A DNA stretch of 64,000 nucleotides, from contig OX460916.1 in NCBI GenBank assembly GCA_949788275.1, positions 62,001 through 126,000 of the forward strand, written 5' to 3'. The notes under the pieces were generated by a model, which was not told the origin of the DNA, ran no database searches, and worked only from the letters and a program-made list of their open reading frames with translations. Shown in pieces: positions 22,391 to 64,000 of this stretch. The stretch comes from Weeksellaceae bacterium. Its GTDB lineage: Bacteria > Bacteroidota > Bacteroidia > Flavobacteriales > Weeksellaceae. The position numbers were made by a program, and so were the translations under genes. The first letter of the stretch is position 1, and the number at the start of each line of letters is the position of its first letter.

Positions 22391-22393
22391 TAG

Positions 22394-22477
22394 TACCTCG
22401 GGCGGGACTTGAACCCGCACGTCCTAATGGACACAGGATTTTAAGTCCTGCGTGTCTACCAATTCCACCACCAAGGC
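22394..22477 (-). tRNA. tRNA-Leu (TAA), copy 2
   Basis: 84 nt with a long variable arm. Acceptor GCCTTGG pairs with CCGAGGT, discriminator A; anticodon loop CTTAAAA gives TAA. T-arm GGGTTCAAGTCCC. Sequence identical to the copy at 22597-22680. Fourth and last gene of the operon. Confidence 0.95.
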
Positions 22478-22494
22478 TACTCTTAGTAAAGTAG

Positions 22495-22567
22495 AGCGGG
22501 AAACGAGACTCGAACTCGCAACATTCAGCTTGGAAGGCTGACGCTCTACCAATTGAGCTATTCCCGC
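22495..22567 (-). tRNA. tRNA-Gly (TCC)
   Basis: 73 nt, acceptor GCGGGAA / TTCCCGC, anticodon loop CTTCCAA, T-loop GAGTTCGAGTCTC. Third gene of the operon. Confidence 0.95.
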
Positions 22568-22596
22568 ATAGAATTCAACAAATTAAATAATAAAAG

Positions 22597-22680
22597 TACC
22601 TCGGGCGGGACTTGAACCCGCACGTCCTAATGGACACAGGATTTTAAGTCCTGCGTGTCTACCAATTCCACCACCAAGGC
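22597..22680 (-). tRNA. tRNA-Leu (TAA), copy 1
   Basis: 84 nt, identical to 22394-22477, with a similar 3' flank (AGTACC on the plus strand). A recent duplication within the operon. Confidence 0.95.
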
Positions 22681-22713
22681 AAAATTTAATTTATTGTTTT
22701 CACTATTTCAAAG

Positions 22714-22786
<73 letters not shown>

Positions 22787-60357: not shown

Positions 60358-60386
60358 TTGTTTTATTAGGTAATTTTATATATTTG
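60358..60386 (+). promoter_or_regulatory. promoter of the tRNA-like element, full consensus
   Basis: TTG (60358-60360), 18 nt, TATATTTG (60379-60386), predicting a start near 60393-60395, the first base of the tRNA-like element. Confidence 0.6.
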
Positions 60387-60394
60387 TTACCAAA

Positions 60395-60471
60395 GGGTGA
60401 TTTGTCTATTATTTAAGTAGTTATTGGAAAGTGAAGAATAATCGGTTCGAATCCGGTATCACCCTTTTTTT
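60395..60471 (+). ncRNA. tRNA-like element, 70 nt, not a canonical tRNA
   Basis: GGGTGAT (60395-60401) pairs perfectly with ATCACCC (60458-60464) as a 7-bp acceptor stem. Immediately inside it is a 5-bp T-arm with loop TTCGAAT (60441-60457), i.e. GGTTCGAATCC, the tRNA B-box. T8 and A14 are present. The rest does not form D and anticodon arms; instead CTATT/AGTAG and TTATT/AATAA hairpins are possible. Seven T follow (60465-60471). It may be a degraded tRNA, an integration site or a tRNA-derived small RNA. Confidence 0.5.
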
Positions 60472-60493: not shown

Positions 60494-61894
60494 ATGAAAC
60501 ACTCTAGACGGAGATTCATTCAGCAGACTTCTTTAGGACTGATAGGTTTTACCTTCTTTTCAAATACTTTTTTTATTTATGGTAAATCAGTCTTATACTC
60601 TTCAAATATTGAAGAAATGCTCATTGAAGCCTCAAATTTTAAAAAGACAAAAGAATACATAAAAGCAGAGAATATCTATTTAAGTATTATACAGCAATTT
60701 CCTTCTGATAATAGAGCATATTTTGGATTAAGAAAAATTTTTTTAGTTCAAAATAAATTTATTAAAGTTATACGTCTATTTGAGAAGAGTGTAAAATTTA
60801 ATCCAGAAAATCCTGTTCTTTTAAATCAATTAGCAAAAGAATATACGAGTATACATTTGGGGAATAGTAAAGTTGTTGAGGAATTAAATTATAATTTTTC
60901 TTTAGTTGATAAAGCAAAAGAATTATATTTATTAGCTAAGGATTATTCTTCTAACTATAAATCAACAGAACGTTTATATAATGATTCAATTGTAATTGAT
61001 AATTCAATAGTAGGTCTAAATAAAATAGATAAAATTATTGAAAATGAATTAGAGGTTTTGGATGCAAGAGATAATAAGAAAGCCAAGGAAATTCTTAAAG
61101 ATAATAGATCTAAAAGCAGATTATATGAGGCTGGTCTATCAGAAGATTTACTGGTTAGTAGAATAATTAAATTAAAGAATAAGTCAAGAAATAATCAACG
61201 AGATATATATATAAAACGTACATATAGAGAGTTAATATATAAAAATATTAAATCAAAGAATTTTGGAGATGCTCATCGATTCGCAGGAGAACTTTATACC
61301 TATGACAAAGAAGATATTTTTAGTCTAAATTTATACAAAAAATCGACATATCGTAATAATAGCTTTGATACTTTAGTACTCATATGTAAAGAGAATGATG
61401 ATTTTCAGAAAACAAATTGGTCGCGAATTGGCTATATTAAAGCCTTATTAAAACGATATGAAAAAGATAATATTGCTAATTTGTCATTAATACATTCTTT
61501 GATAAATTCCTTTCATACTTTATATATTAAGAAACCTTCCACTTCCTTAGAAATTTATTTTTTAGAAGCTAAATTTTCATTTTTAAAAAAAGATTATGCC
61601 TTAATGCAAGAAAATATTAAAACTATTTCAGGTAATCTGATTGGTACTAATAATACGCATAGTTTGGTAAGATTTATGAAAATTTTTTCGAATTATTATA
61701 TGGCAATTGGTAAAAAAGATGAAGCTATTATATTAATTAATTCCTTTTTGTCAAATGCTGTTAAGGATTATATTATTACAGAGGAATTATCAAATAGAAT
61801 TCTTGCTGTGTCACAAACTAAATCTTATACCATAAAAGAGTTTGGACATCAAAAGGAAATCATGGAATTAAAAAAAACAATTCAATCCGTTTAG
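60494..61894 (+). CDS. Tat-signal TPR-like protein of the Rhs/T9SS cluster
   Basis: 466 residues from MKHSRRRFIQQTSLG; a longer reading from 60431 would begin inside the tRNA-like element and hide the signal. The N-terminus is a twin-arginine signal (SRRRFIQ) with a hydrophobic stretch (LGLIGFTFFSNTFFI). The mature part is helical with TPR-like repeats (KAENIYLSIIQQFPSDNRAYF, its central part; EKSVKFNPENPVLLNQLA). The rest is Lys/Asn-rich. Function unknown; it is followed immediately by the lamin-tail and Rhs genes, so it may serve their export or folding (inference). AT content is high, unlike clpC. Confidence 0.75.
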   Translation: MKHSRRRFIQQTSLGLIGFTFFSNTFFIYGKSVLYSSNIEEMLIEASNFKKTKEYIKAENIYLSIIQQFPSDNRAYFGLRKIFLVQNKFIKVIRLFEKSVKFNPENPVLLNQLAKEYTSIHLGNSKVVEELNYNFSLVDKAKELYLLAKDYSSNYKSTERLYNDSIVIDNSIVGLNKIDKIIENELEVLDARDNKKAKEILKDNRSKSRLYEAGLSEDLLVSRIIKLKNKSRNNQRDIYIKRTYRELIYKNIKSKNFGDAHRFAGELYTYDKEDIFSLNLYKKSTYRNNSFDTLVLICKENDDFQKTNWSRIGYIKALLKRYEKDNIANLSLIHSLINSFHTLYIKKPSTSLEIYFLEAKFSFLKKDYALMQENIKTISGNLIGTNNTHSLVRFMKIFSNYYMAIGKKDEAIILINSFLSNAVKDYIITEELSNRILAVSQTKSYTIKEFGHQKEIMELKKTIQSV

Positions 61895-61898
61895 ATAT

Positions 61899-63095
61899 AT
61901 GGAAAAAATTATACTTTCTATTATTGGTTTTTTTACAGCATAAAGTGTCATTTCTCAAATAGCTATTACTGAGATTTATTTTGACTCGGATCATATGGAG
62001 TATTCTAAAGTAGATCCTTATCATCATGCAGGGGAATTTATAGAATTATTTAATTACACCACTGAAGATATAGACATCGGAAGTTGGATTATAGCAGATG
62101 ATGAAAATAGTTTTATCTTTCCAAGGAATACTGTAGTGAAATCTAATGATTTTTTAATCATCGCATATATCAATGATGCCATTAAATCAAAAAATGCAAA
62201 TTATTTTTTAGATTTTTTTCCTACAACAAGACCCCACAGCGATAAGATTATTTATACTGATAAAATAATTTTAAATAACTACAAGGAATCAGTTTCTCTT
62301 TTTATGACAACGATTAGAGGTGAAAAATTAAATACTAATTTCTCAGGCGTTAGAATAGATGGTATATCTTGGGAATTCTCTGAAAAAAAACTACCTAAAG
62401 GAAAGTATTCAACGCATAATTTAATAACGGATTTTGATTATTACTCATCTTCATATCACAAAAATGCTCCAAAAGACTATATTAATATAGTTGAGATGAG
62501 CAGAGTGAATACATTTAATTCTAACTTCGATAAAGCTAATCCATTTGAACTATATTATAAACCATCTCTAATTAATTTAGAAGATATAACCTATGTAAAA
62601 GAGGCAATATATCAGTTTGAACATTTTGGAAAGATGAAAATAATACCTGAATTGTTTAATTTAACGTGCAATATACATATTCCTACAATTGGTTATACTA
62701 TTCCAAGTGATAATTATACGAACAGTAGATGTTTTCAATATGATTCGGCAGGAAATTACATAAATTCAATGCGATTTTGTTTAGAGCAGGCAAGTGATCC
62801 TATTGGAGATGATGAAATTGTTATAGGTGTAGAAAAAAGCATCGAAGAATTATTTTTTGTTACGCCAAACCCTACGAATGGAAAAATCACAATTTCTTGG
62901 GATAAATCATTAAAGCATTCATTATCTCAAATTTATATTATACCATTTAATGGATCAAATTCAATTCAAATAAAGTTTAATTCTCTGGATTTTGAAACGA
63001 GTTATGACTTAATAACTTTTTCAAAAGGAATTTATTTCGTGGAATTTATTTTAGAGGATGGGCGTAAAATTTCTAAAAAAATAATAAAACTCTAA
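61899..63095 (+). pseudogene. lamin-tail-domain protein with T9SS sorting domain, stop in signal peptide
   Basis: ATG at 61899 begins a signal-like MEKIILSIIGFFTA, then an in-frame TAA (61941-61943), then SVISQIAITEIYFDSDH, with the same frame continuing to 63095. Reading past the stop gives a 398-codon gene: a lamin-tail domain (GEFIELFNYTTEDIDIGSW, then NDFLIIAY) and a T9SS type A sorting domain (FFVTPNPTNGKITISWDK, ending KKIIKL). Translation restarting at 61995 would lack a signal. LTD proteins are often surface or nucleic-acid-binding modules. Located between the Tat-TPR gene and the Rhs gene. Confidence 0.75.
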
Positions 63096-63110: not shown

Positions 63111-64000
63111 ATGAGTAAATTAATTACACTTGTTTTTCTATTATCTAGTTTTGTATTTGCTCAACAGATAGAAGACGTTAAAGAATTCAAATCAGATCGC
63201 AGTTCTTATATAAATATTATATCTCATCCTAATACTTCCGATTTTATTCCTACTATTAATGCAGAATCAGATGTTAGCGTGAGTGGGGCATTTTCTCAAA
63301 TAATTCCTATTGAAGTTTTGGGAGGAATAAATAATTTTCAACCAAATATTTCCCTTGTTTATAATAGTCAAACCCATGGAGGATTAGCGGGGGAAGGATG
63401 GAATATTTCAGGTTTATCATCTATAACCTTGGGAGGGAAAAGCCTACAAATAGATAACAATAGCGAAGGGATTACTTTCGATGGTACGGATCCATATTAT
63501 TTGGACGGACAACGACTTATTGAGTCAAATGGGGAATATTATACTGAAGCGTTATCAGCTATTAAGATTAGAAAAAATGATGCGACAACTTTTACTGTTC
63601 ATTTTACTGATGGTCGTGTTTCTACCTACCGCAAGATAGGTCTCTTTGATTTTGTTATAACAGAGATGAGAGATGCTTTTAACAATAAGATAACATATGA
63701 ATATGAAAATAATGGAAATATAAGTTATATAAAAAAAATTAGCTATGGTCTTAATGCATTGTTCTCTCTTGAATTTGATTATACTGAAAATCCTAATCGA
63801 ATTATTTCTTATGTGAATGGAAGTGAGATTATTTCAAATAAAGTATTATCGCAAATTACAATAAATTCTAGAGAAGGATTATTTCGTAAATACTCATTAA
63901 CACATGACCTTACGAGTTTAAAATATCCTAGATTAAGGGAAGTAAATGTATTTAATAATAAAAATGAAGTATTAAAACCTCTTAAGTTTGATTATAATAG
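63111..64000 (+). CDS. SpvB/Rhs-type secreted protein, 3'-truncated by the window
   Basis: At least 296 residues, still open at the window end. Sec signal MSKLITLVFLLSSFVFAQ. The SpvB-type N-terminal region follows: NFQPNISLVYNSQTHGGL, GEGWNISGLSSIT, and GRVSTYRKIGLF, common in large Rhs/YD-repeat proteins where it forms the start of the toxin shell. The C-terminal toxin tip lies outside the window. It follows the LTD gene by 15 bp and has the same high AT content, so all three genes form one accessory operon. A Sec signal suggests export to the periplasm followed by outer-membrane export. Confidence 0.8.
   Translation, partial: MSKLITLVFLLSSFVFAQQIEDVKEFKSDRSSYINIISHPNTSDFIPTINAESDVSVSGAFSQIIPIEVLGGINNFQPNISLVYNSQTHGGLAGEGWNISGLSSITLGGKSLQIDNNSEGITFDGTDPYYLDGQRLIESNGEYYTEALSAIKIRKNDATTFTVHFTDGRVSTYRKIGLFDFVITEMRDAFNNKITYEYENNGNISYIKKISYGLNALFSLEFDYTENPNRIISYVNGSEIISNKVLSQITINSREGLFRKYSLTHDLTSLKYPRLREVNVFNNKNEVLKPLKFDYN

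Follow-up and report, generated by a model that had tools for sequence, protein, structure and literature searches.

Near the end of the window, by which we mean the whole stretch of 64,000 nucleotides that was analysed, a predicted promoter and a short predicted RNA stand directly before the first of three genes on the forward strand. The parts of the locus are as follows.

60358..60386 (+): predicted promoter, with a putative TTG element at 60358-60360, an N18 spacer and the -7 box TATATTTG at 60379-60386, read directly.
60391..60471 (+): predicted leader RNA, from the start, placed by the position of the -7 box, to the end of the T tract, placed by P1 and that tract.
60392..60401 (+): 5' strand of P1, the acceptor-like closing stem, AAAGGGTGAT, supported by covariation of its inner seven pairs.
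60406..60420 (+): hairpin CTATT-ATTTA-AGTAG at the D-arm position, seen in the minimum-energy fold only; by eye, the related copy G002 lacks it.
60421..60434 (+): candidate P2, a weak middle hairpin at the anticodon-arm position, present in the minimum-energy fold and missing from the centroid.
60441..60457 (+): P3, the T-arm hairpin ATCGG-TTCGAAT-CCGGT (5+7+5), stacked on P1 with zero spacer and supported by covariation.
60458..60467 (+): 3' strand of P1, ATCACCCTTT, from stem finding and covariation.
60465..60471 (+): T tract of seven T, the first three able to pair within P1; together with P1 it forms an intrinsic-terminator-like end.
60494..61894 (+): first gene, for a 466-aa protein with a twin-arginine-like signal, read from an RRxF motif, and an all-helical TPR-like body.
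61995..63095 (+): second gene, with a lamin-tail-like domain (LTD 34.2 bits, cut-off 34.3) and a T9SS sorting domain (Por_Secre_tail 38.6 bits, cut-off 27).
63111..63998 (+): third gene, whose 2242-aa SpvB/RHS protein begins here and continues past the window (RHS_repeat 68.4 bits, cut-off 22).

Direct reading bears out the parts that an earlier note on this DNA had named: TTG-N18-TATATTTG at 60358-60386, a 7-bp stem with the strands GGGTGAT (60395-60401) and ATCACCC (60458-60464), a 5+7+5 T-arm joined to it without spacer, and seven T at the end. The stem reaches 10 bp in the window, AAAGGGTGAT pairing with ATCACCCTTT (60392-60401 with 60458-60467). That note had also placed the start of transcription at the first base of the stem. 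The promoter box behind this claim recurs in 26 of 34 loci, but the box puts the start at 60391, four bases earlier and one base ahead of the 10-bp P1, when it is set at -12 to -5; the consensus and this placement of the flavobacterial sigma-A -7 box are those given in the passages of PMC9723704 used here. The TATATTTG box also precedes the first tRNA-Gly gene of the window. In isolation the folding of the window RNA is unremarkable, with z of -1.32 over 79 nt and -2.1 over 76 nt with slightly other ends. In the window and in G002 the frame of the first gene extends back through the T-arm (GTG 63 nt, ATG 69 nt upstream), and this extension is not common to the family. Elsewhere the window holds five matches to the Flavo-1 RNA (RF01705; 10649, 19587, 29789, 41134 and 51474) and, at 22393-22786, a cluster of tRNA-Gly(gcc), tRNA-Leu(taa), tRNA-Gly(tcc) and tRNA-Leu(taa), both tRNA-Leu scoring 58.1 bits.

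The first gene is called the Tat-signal gene below. Its protein scores below the cut-off of the Pfam TPR models, is predicted all helical by AlphaFold2 (mean pLDDT 76.5, pTM 0.51), and has TPR proteins as its nearest PDB folds, at low TM. Pfam gives it no match to a nuclease family, and no sign of RNA binding was seen. The second gene has in the window an in-frame stop within its would-be signal peptide (61886-61995), whereas its G002 counterpart is open throughout and has a complete N-terminus. The same order recurs in ten neighbourhoods, each at most 20 kb long, namely the RNA, the Tat-signal gene, a T9SS/lamin-tail-like gene of 366-403 codons and a giant Rhs/SpvB-type gene of 2,200-2,303 codons. 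Small genes resembling immunity genes and displaced toxin tips often follow at the rear of the third gene. The flanking genes vary between genomes: the cassette with its leader lies in different chromosomal neighbourhoods. The neighbourhood labels are readings of translations, and Pfam was applied to the genes of the window and to the Rhs gene and following gene of another cassette. An orphan frame behind the Rhs gene in the window genome (L027, 11349-11840) matches the colicin E5 ribonuclease at 27 bits, with the cut-off at 25. In G150 (L024) another Rhs-like frame seems, by eye, to end just upstream of the leader, which suggests tandem cassettes.

Of 320 genomes in the family, 33 have a relative of the Tat-signal gene (E ≤ 1e-10); a sampled scan gives 20 of 197 (E ≤ 1e-8). 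When related genomes were searched for the element, as the earlier note had proposed, the leader was found to precede the gene in all 33 gene-carrying family genomes and in Flavobacterium filum, hence at 34/34 loci. Conservation of the leader follows the gene and not the chromosomal position. The automatic stem finder recognised 33 of these leaders, and the one in G610, with its short T tract, was recognised by eye. Named carriers, with 18 loci, are Chryseobacterium (Weeksellaceae, Flavobacteriales), Epilithonimonas, two metagenome-assembled flavobacteria and F. filum; they overlap the G-numbered genomes and are not independent of the 33. Within the window's own genus two of 14 genomes have the element, and in both it precedes a gene whose product has 466-471 aa and a twin-arginine-like signal. 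Among the 33 carriers, G141, G526 and G610 have a broken or interrupted copy of the gene, and G534 gives a partial match. The order-wide protein scan, with four candidates per genome scored, places the Tat-signal protein in at least 10 of 395 genomes, all within this family. Carriage on plasmids or phages is not indicated: tblastn at E ≤ 1e-5 finds no match to the protein in the plasmid or phage collections.

Across the 34 loci the leader is 68-91 nt long, P1 has 7-14 bp, and the distance from the end of P1 to the start codon is 16-36 nt. At least five T are found among the eight bases after P1 at 33 loci, and four T in G610. An exact TAnnTTTG is found in the 24 nt ahead of P1 at 26/34 loci as against 2/92 control windows, with a median distance of 6 nt from the -7 box to P1; the exact box is missing at eight loci. 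Since P1 was sought by complementarity, part of its perfect pairing stems from the search itself, and shuffles and slid partners serve as the controls. Shuffled upstream regions reach a P1 score of the observed level in 51 of 3400 trials, 14 of the 51 coming from G610. The mean folding z over the 34 leaders is -1.63, with nine below -2, compared with 0.02 and one of 34 for upstream controls, which is a modest effect.

For its inner seven pairs, P1 shows nine distinct versions among the leaders, every one of them complementary when G-U is included. For the covariation check that the earlier note had suggested, two alignments were used. The core alignment holds 18 Chryseobacterium/Epilithonimonas-type leaders; removal of four duplicates had left 19 distinct ones, and F. 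filum was then dropped. Without guidance, RNAalifold recovers from it P1, P3 and a small P2. In these 18 leaders 94.8% of cells are paired, compared with at best 62.1% for slid partners, and both-side changes occur in all three helices; two of the five measures fall within the shuffled range (double-change pairs, 43/500; further pair types, 115/500). The 3-bp helix at the place of P2 pairs in 90.7% of cells in the core family. The unpaired stretches of the core leaders are conserved as well, and mean column identity is 80% over all columns versus 65% in nine proteins of the same group, two values that are not strictly comparable.

The second alignment joins the four divergent copies of the window, G002, G073 and F. 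filum. P1 and P3 are paired there in 48/48 cells, both-side changes affect 8 of 12 pairs, three of the five P3 pairs among them, and the covariation score is 0.861 with the true partners and at most 0.347 with slid ones, so the check came out in favour of both stems. G077 stands outside this alignment, as MAFFT misplaced its 5' strand, and P1 of G002 was set by hand to 7 bp after the finder had over-extended it into P3. Covariation was counted on 18 + 4 rows; G033, G187, G164, G612, G127, G150 and G077 are in neither alignment. The automatic picker of P3 chose weak helices in several copies, hence no total for P3 over the 34 loci is given. We regard the element as standing above chance because of three comparisons, which are the recurrence at 34/34 loci, the covariation, and the TAnnTTTG box at 26/34 against 2/92. 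The promoter box, the structure with its covariation, the T tract and the fixed linkage to the operon are all matters of observation.

How far the likeness to a tRNA goes differs from part to part. A 5+7+5 T-arm stacked without spacer on the acceptor-like stem is present in the window, G002, G073, F. filum and G077, and the other 29 of the 34 copies differ in the loop or the stem of the T-arm. The loop TTCGAAT itself occurs in four of the 34 copies (window, G002, G073 and G077), on different stems. In a tree of 30 proteins these four copies fall outside the large Chryseobacterium/Epilithonimonas clade; two state changes suffice, and 5 of 500 shuffles are as low. The root of this tree is arbitrary (midpoint, with the long branch of G150), and the incomplete or broken proteins of G141, G534, G526 and G610 were left out. 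We suggest that the T-loop could be ancestral. As to the D and anticodon arms, which the earlier note had found undrawable, the claim holds for the D-arm, which pairs in 45.8% of cells of the core alignment of 18 (MAFFT gaps may blur this value) and is not supported; it does not hold for the middle of the molecule, since a short hairpin can be drawn there, weak as it is in the window. A hint of a D-arm is the change from AATC/GATT in G033 to AAAC/GTTT, seen in G187, G164 and G612 only.

Covariance models were used to ask how closely the forms belong together. The model of the core leaders, R1, matches in 12 of 197 genomes, at one place each; at most 25 candidates per genome were scored under strict filters, so second copies may be missed. 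Eleven of its matches stand before a full Tat-signal gene and the twelfth, in G141, before a gene interrupted by a transposase-like ORF (read from translations). R1 misses nine of the 20 carriers, the window included. The model of the four divergent copies, R2, matches at least six of 33 carriers in a scan of few candidates per genome with strict filters; three are its own rows and three are unseen core leaders (G126, G143 and G021). It gives equally high scores to four degenerate tRNA-like arrays, and for this reason R2 alone is no proof of kinship. The unity of the divergent forms appears to rest mainly on position, promoter, the plan of P1 and the T tract. Rfam 15 has nothing at the window leader at gathering cut-offs; at 11 of the 20 loci, searched with E up to 1, the leader is overlapped only by RF00005 (27.3 bits, L008), and three leader regions searched alone with E up to 10 give no match at cut-off.

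Tandem arrays of degenerate tRNA-like genes were seen at L122 (1501-1897), L124 (1501-1813), L127 (1502-2116) and L128 (955-1568), in four genomes of genus g21, which we infer to be Chryseobacterium. They have unusual anticodons, including agc, acc, aac and att, and adjoin a dehydrogenase-like ORF, some also Sir2- and TatD-like ORFs, all named from translations.

We suggest, with about even confidence, that 60391-60471 would encode the leader RNA of a T9SS-linked Rhs toxin cassette, an RNA that resembles a tRNA in part and terminates itself. RNA polymerase would start at the sigma-A promoter and make an RNA of about 75-80 nt, in which the acceptor-like P1 carries the stacked T-arm hairpin P3. 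Ahead of the first start codon the polymerase would then meet P1 and the T tract, which together resemble an intrinsic terminator. Only 16-36 nt separate P1 from the ATG, too few for another promoter, therefore the operon mRNA would have to arise by read-through of the leader RNA or by transcription from further upstream. Premature termination at the leader may keep the operon low, and a protein or small molecule that recognises the conserved fold may set the read-through. Transcription, termination, their regulation and the regulator are here what we infer from the sequence. The layout along the DNA is that of an attenuator, with promoter, structured RNA, stem plus T tract and start codon in this order (exact -7 box at 26/34 loci).

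Some features fit this self-terminating leader less easily. P1 closes over 53-68 nt. Terminators are usually short-looped, and the long loop of P1 thus counts against the terminator reading. Nothing points to a leader-peptide or two-hairpin attenuator: there is no conserved upstream ORF or leader peptide common to the family, and alternative helices lie at the level of shuffles. The best alternative partners of the arms of P1, sought inside P1 only, reach 3.7 bp for the 3' arm (4.0 in shuffles) and 4.9 bp for the 5' arm (4.7 in shuffles), P1 itself having 9.0; exceptions are the 5' arms of G077 and G127 (9 and 4 of 200 shuffles). Antitermination of the UpxY/RfaH kind is not indicated either, as no extra NusG was found in the 20 carriers tested out of 33: 19 of them have one NusG and G126 has none, and of 20 non-carriers 19 have one and G114 has two.

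The missing alternative structure is equally expected of an independent small RNA, and this is the other reading to be taken seriously, possible but clearly less probable than the cis leader. The RNA would be a trans-acting, tRNA-like sRNA of about 75 nt, and expression of the operon would be a by-product of incomplete termination; its targets, proposed just as tentatively, would be mRNAs, the toxin or immunity partner, or an RNA-binding protein. The strong closing stem with its T tract, the predicted start right at that stem, the conserved unpaired stretches of the core leaders (mean column identity, all columns counted, 80%) and the alternative structures that do no better than shuffles are all in line with it. 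So is a weak share in the P1/T-arm plan with the Streptococcus SpF41 model (17.6, 15.6 and 20.7 bits; cut-off 52), F41 being a real transcript that pulls down RNase Z and Cbf1 according to the passages used from PMC7196914. However, all 34 copies stand directly before the same gene, a fixed cis position that is more typical of leaders, and the R1 candidates scored in the 197 genomes include no copy at any other place. A coaxial acceptor/T-arm is the part of a tRNA that the processing enzymes RNase Z and RNase P recognise, and on this ground such enzymes might cut the fold off the operon mRNA as a processed 5' leader, setting mRNA stability. The canonical TTCGAAT loop kept on different stems in the window, G002, G073 and G077 speaks for this quite improbable case; but 30 of the 34 copies lack the loop, the predicted transcript begins at the stem and leaves nothing for RNase P, and the T tract is unnecessary for such processing. 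In type III toxin-antitoxin systems the layout is promoter, RNA, terminator and protein gene. The cassette has its parts in the same order, yet that our RNA is the RNA arm of such a pair is the least credible of the readings, for the protein that follows combines a Tat-like signal with a predicted TPR-like fold and matches no nuclease family, and the RNA is single, with no repeat array.

The earlier note had offered, among others, a decayed tRNA or a site where the cassette had integrated, and neither idea is supported. Against an intact or decayed tRNA speak ARAGORN, which calls no tRNA at the window element, the Rfam score (RF00005, 20.8 bits in the window and 27.3 in G077, cut-off 29) and the covariation: the stems covary across genera, and the RNA stands before one gene at 34/34 loci. 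Against integration into a tRNA speak the congeneric sites, the unrepeated left flank and the tail search. In 13 of 13 congeneric genomes, among them G002 with its cassette elsewhere, rnpB comes next after clpC, and these loci (3.6 kb) gave no further Rfam RNA at gathering level. The window genome has the cassette between the two; there rnpB (contig positions 140326-140639) is some 18 kb away from clpC, and the left flank of the cassette has no repeat at its right end. A copied tail of an intact tRNA, which the note had named as counting against its reading, finds no exact match in the genome; a search to two mismatches gives one tRNA-Tyr (two mismatches in 16 specified bases), the only tRNA found, and one place without a called tRNA. 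A pseudo-tRNA or remnant of a tRNA gene that marks the integration of the toxin cassette is hence very unlikely. The acceptor and T-arm geometry and the tRNA-model scores, both below 29, are in its favour. The uniform clpC-rnpB junction of the congeners, the window genome's own rnpB downstream of clpC beyond the cassette, the unrepeated flank and the two mismatches of the nearest tail tell against it, as does the fact that the RNA accompanies the cassette in different neighbourhoods (translation reading), and no relative was seen with an empty site and an intact tRNA there.

Of what the note had offered, a tRNA-derived regulatory RNA comes closest. The tRNA-like leader with covarying stems stands; its transcription and regulation are predicted, and descent from a tRNA is possible rather than proven. 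Taken together, we have a leader RNA or sRNA built on the acceptor/T-arm plan, probably a switch or a small RNA tied to the toxin cassette and not a dead tRNA gene. We also put forward, as a rather improbable idea, that this could be an undescribed, tRNA-descended RNA family tied to a secreted Rhs weapon operon, with its fold sensed by a tRNA-handling protein such as RNase Z or a modifying enzyme. If this were true, such sensing would couple toxin production to the state of translation or tRNA processing.

In the open-access literature, surveyed mostly by titles and the starts of abstracts, we found no leader RNA described for T9SS/Rhs cassettes, and titles and abstract starts gave no account of the activation of T9SS-linked Rhs toxin operons. 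A conserved leader at the head of such an operon provides a defined, testable point of control. It is also a sequence handle for finding T9SS/Rhs cassettes, and it adds to the cases in which an acceptor/T-arm architecture is used outside translation.

In systems of the UpxY, RfaH and LoaP type a long operon is controlled at its leader. The present operon is likewise long with a leader at its head, but here the 20 carriers tested have no extra NusG-family protein. The SpF41 sRNA of Streptococcus (RF02435), a useful analogue, resembles our RNA in P1, the middle hairpin and a T-arm with GGUUCGAAUCC adjoining P1, as the model alignment shows; it belongs to another phylum, the leaders score 15.6-20.7 of the 52 bits required, and the SpF41 model runs past P1 into a further hairpin and T tract. 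The flavobacterial structured 5' cis-regulatory leaders likewise place a structured RNA between promoter and first gene: for F. psychrophilum PMC9723704, in the passages used, counts 64 structured 5' regions, of which some have no Rfam match. Its leader section names no Rhs/T9SS operon and no tRNA-like fold, whereas here a closing stem and T tract end the leader, with no conserved leader peptide. The T9SS-linked and Rhs polymorphic toxins of Bacteroidota belong to cassettes of the same general kind, O. hominis having a SpvB/TcdB-like rhs gene of more than 9 kb with displaced tips (PMC7073777, PMC6421346); unlike here, the passages of these papers that we used describe no leader RNA. Last, the pseudo-tRNA tRNA-Other of Bacillus cereus is, in the part of PMC3399842 used, also a tRNA-like RNA outside translation beside accessory genes; its anticodon is that for Trp and it is made as part of a larger RNA, while the leader of the Rhs cassette has no drawable anticodon and comes with its own predicted promoter and end.
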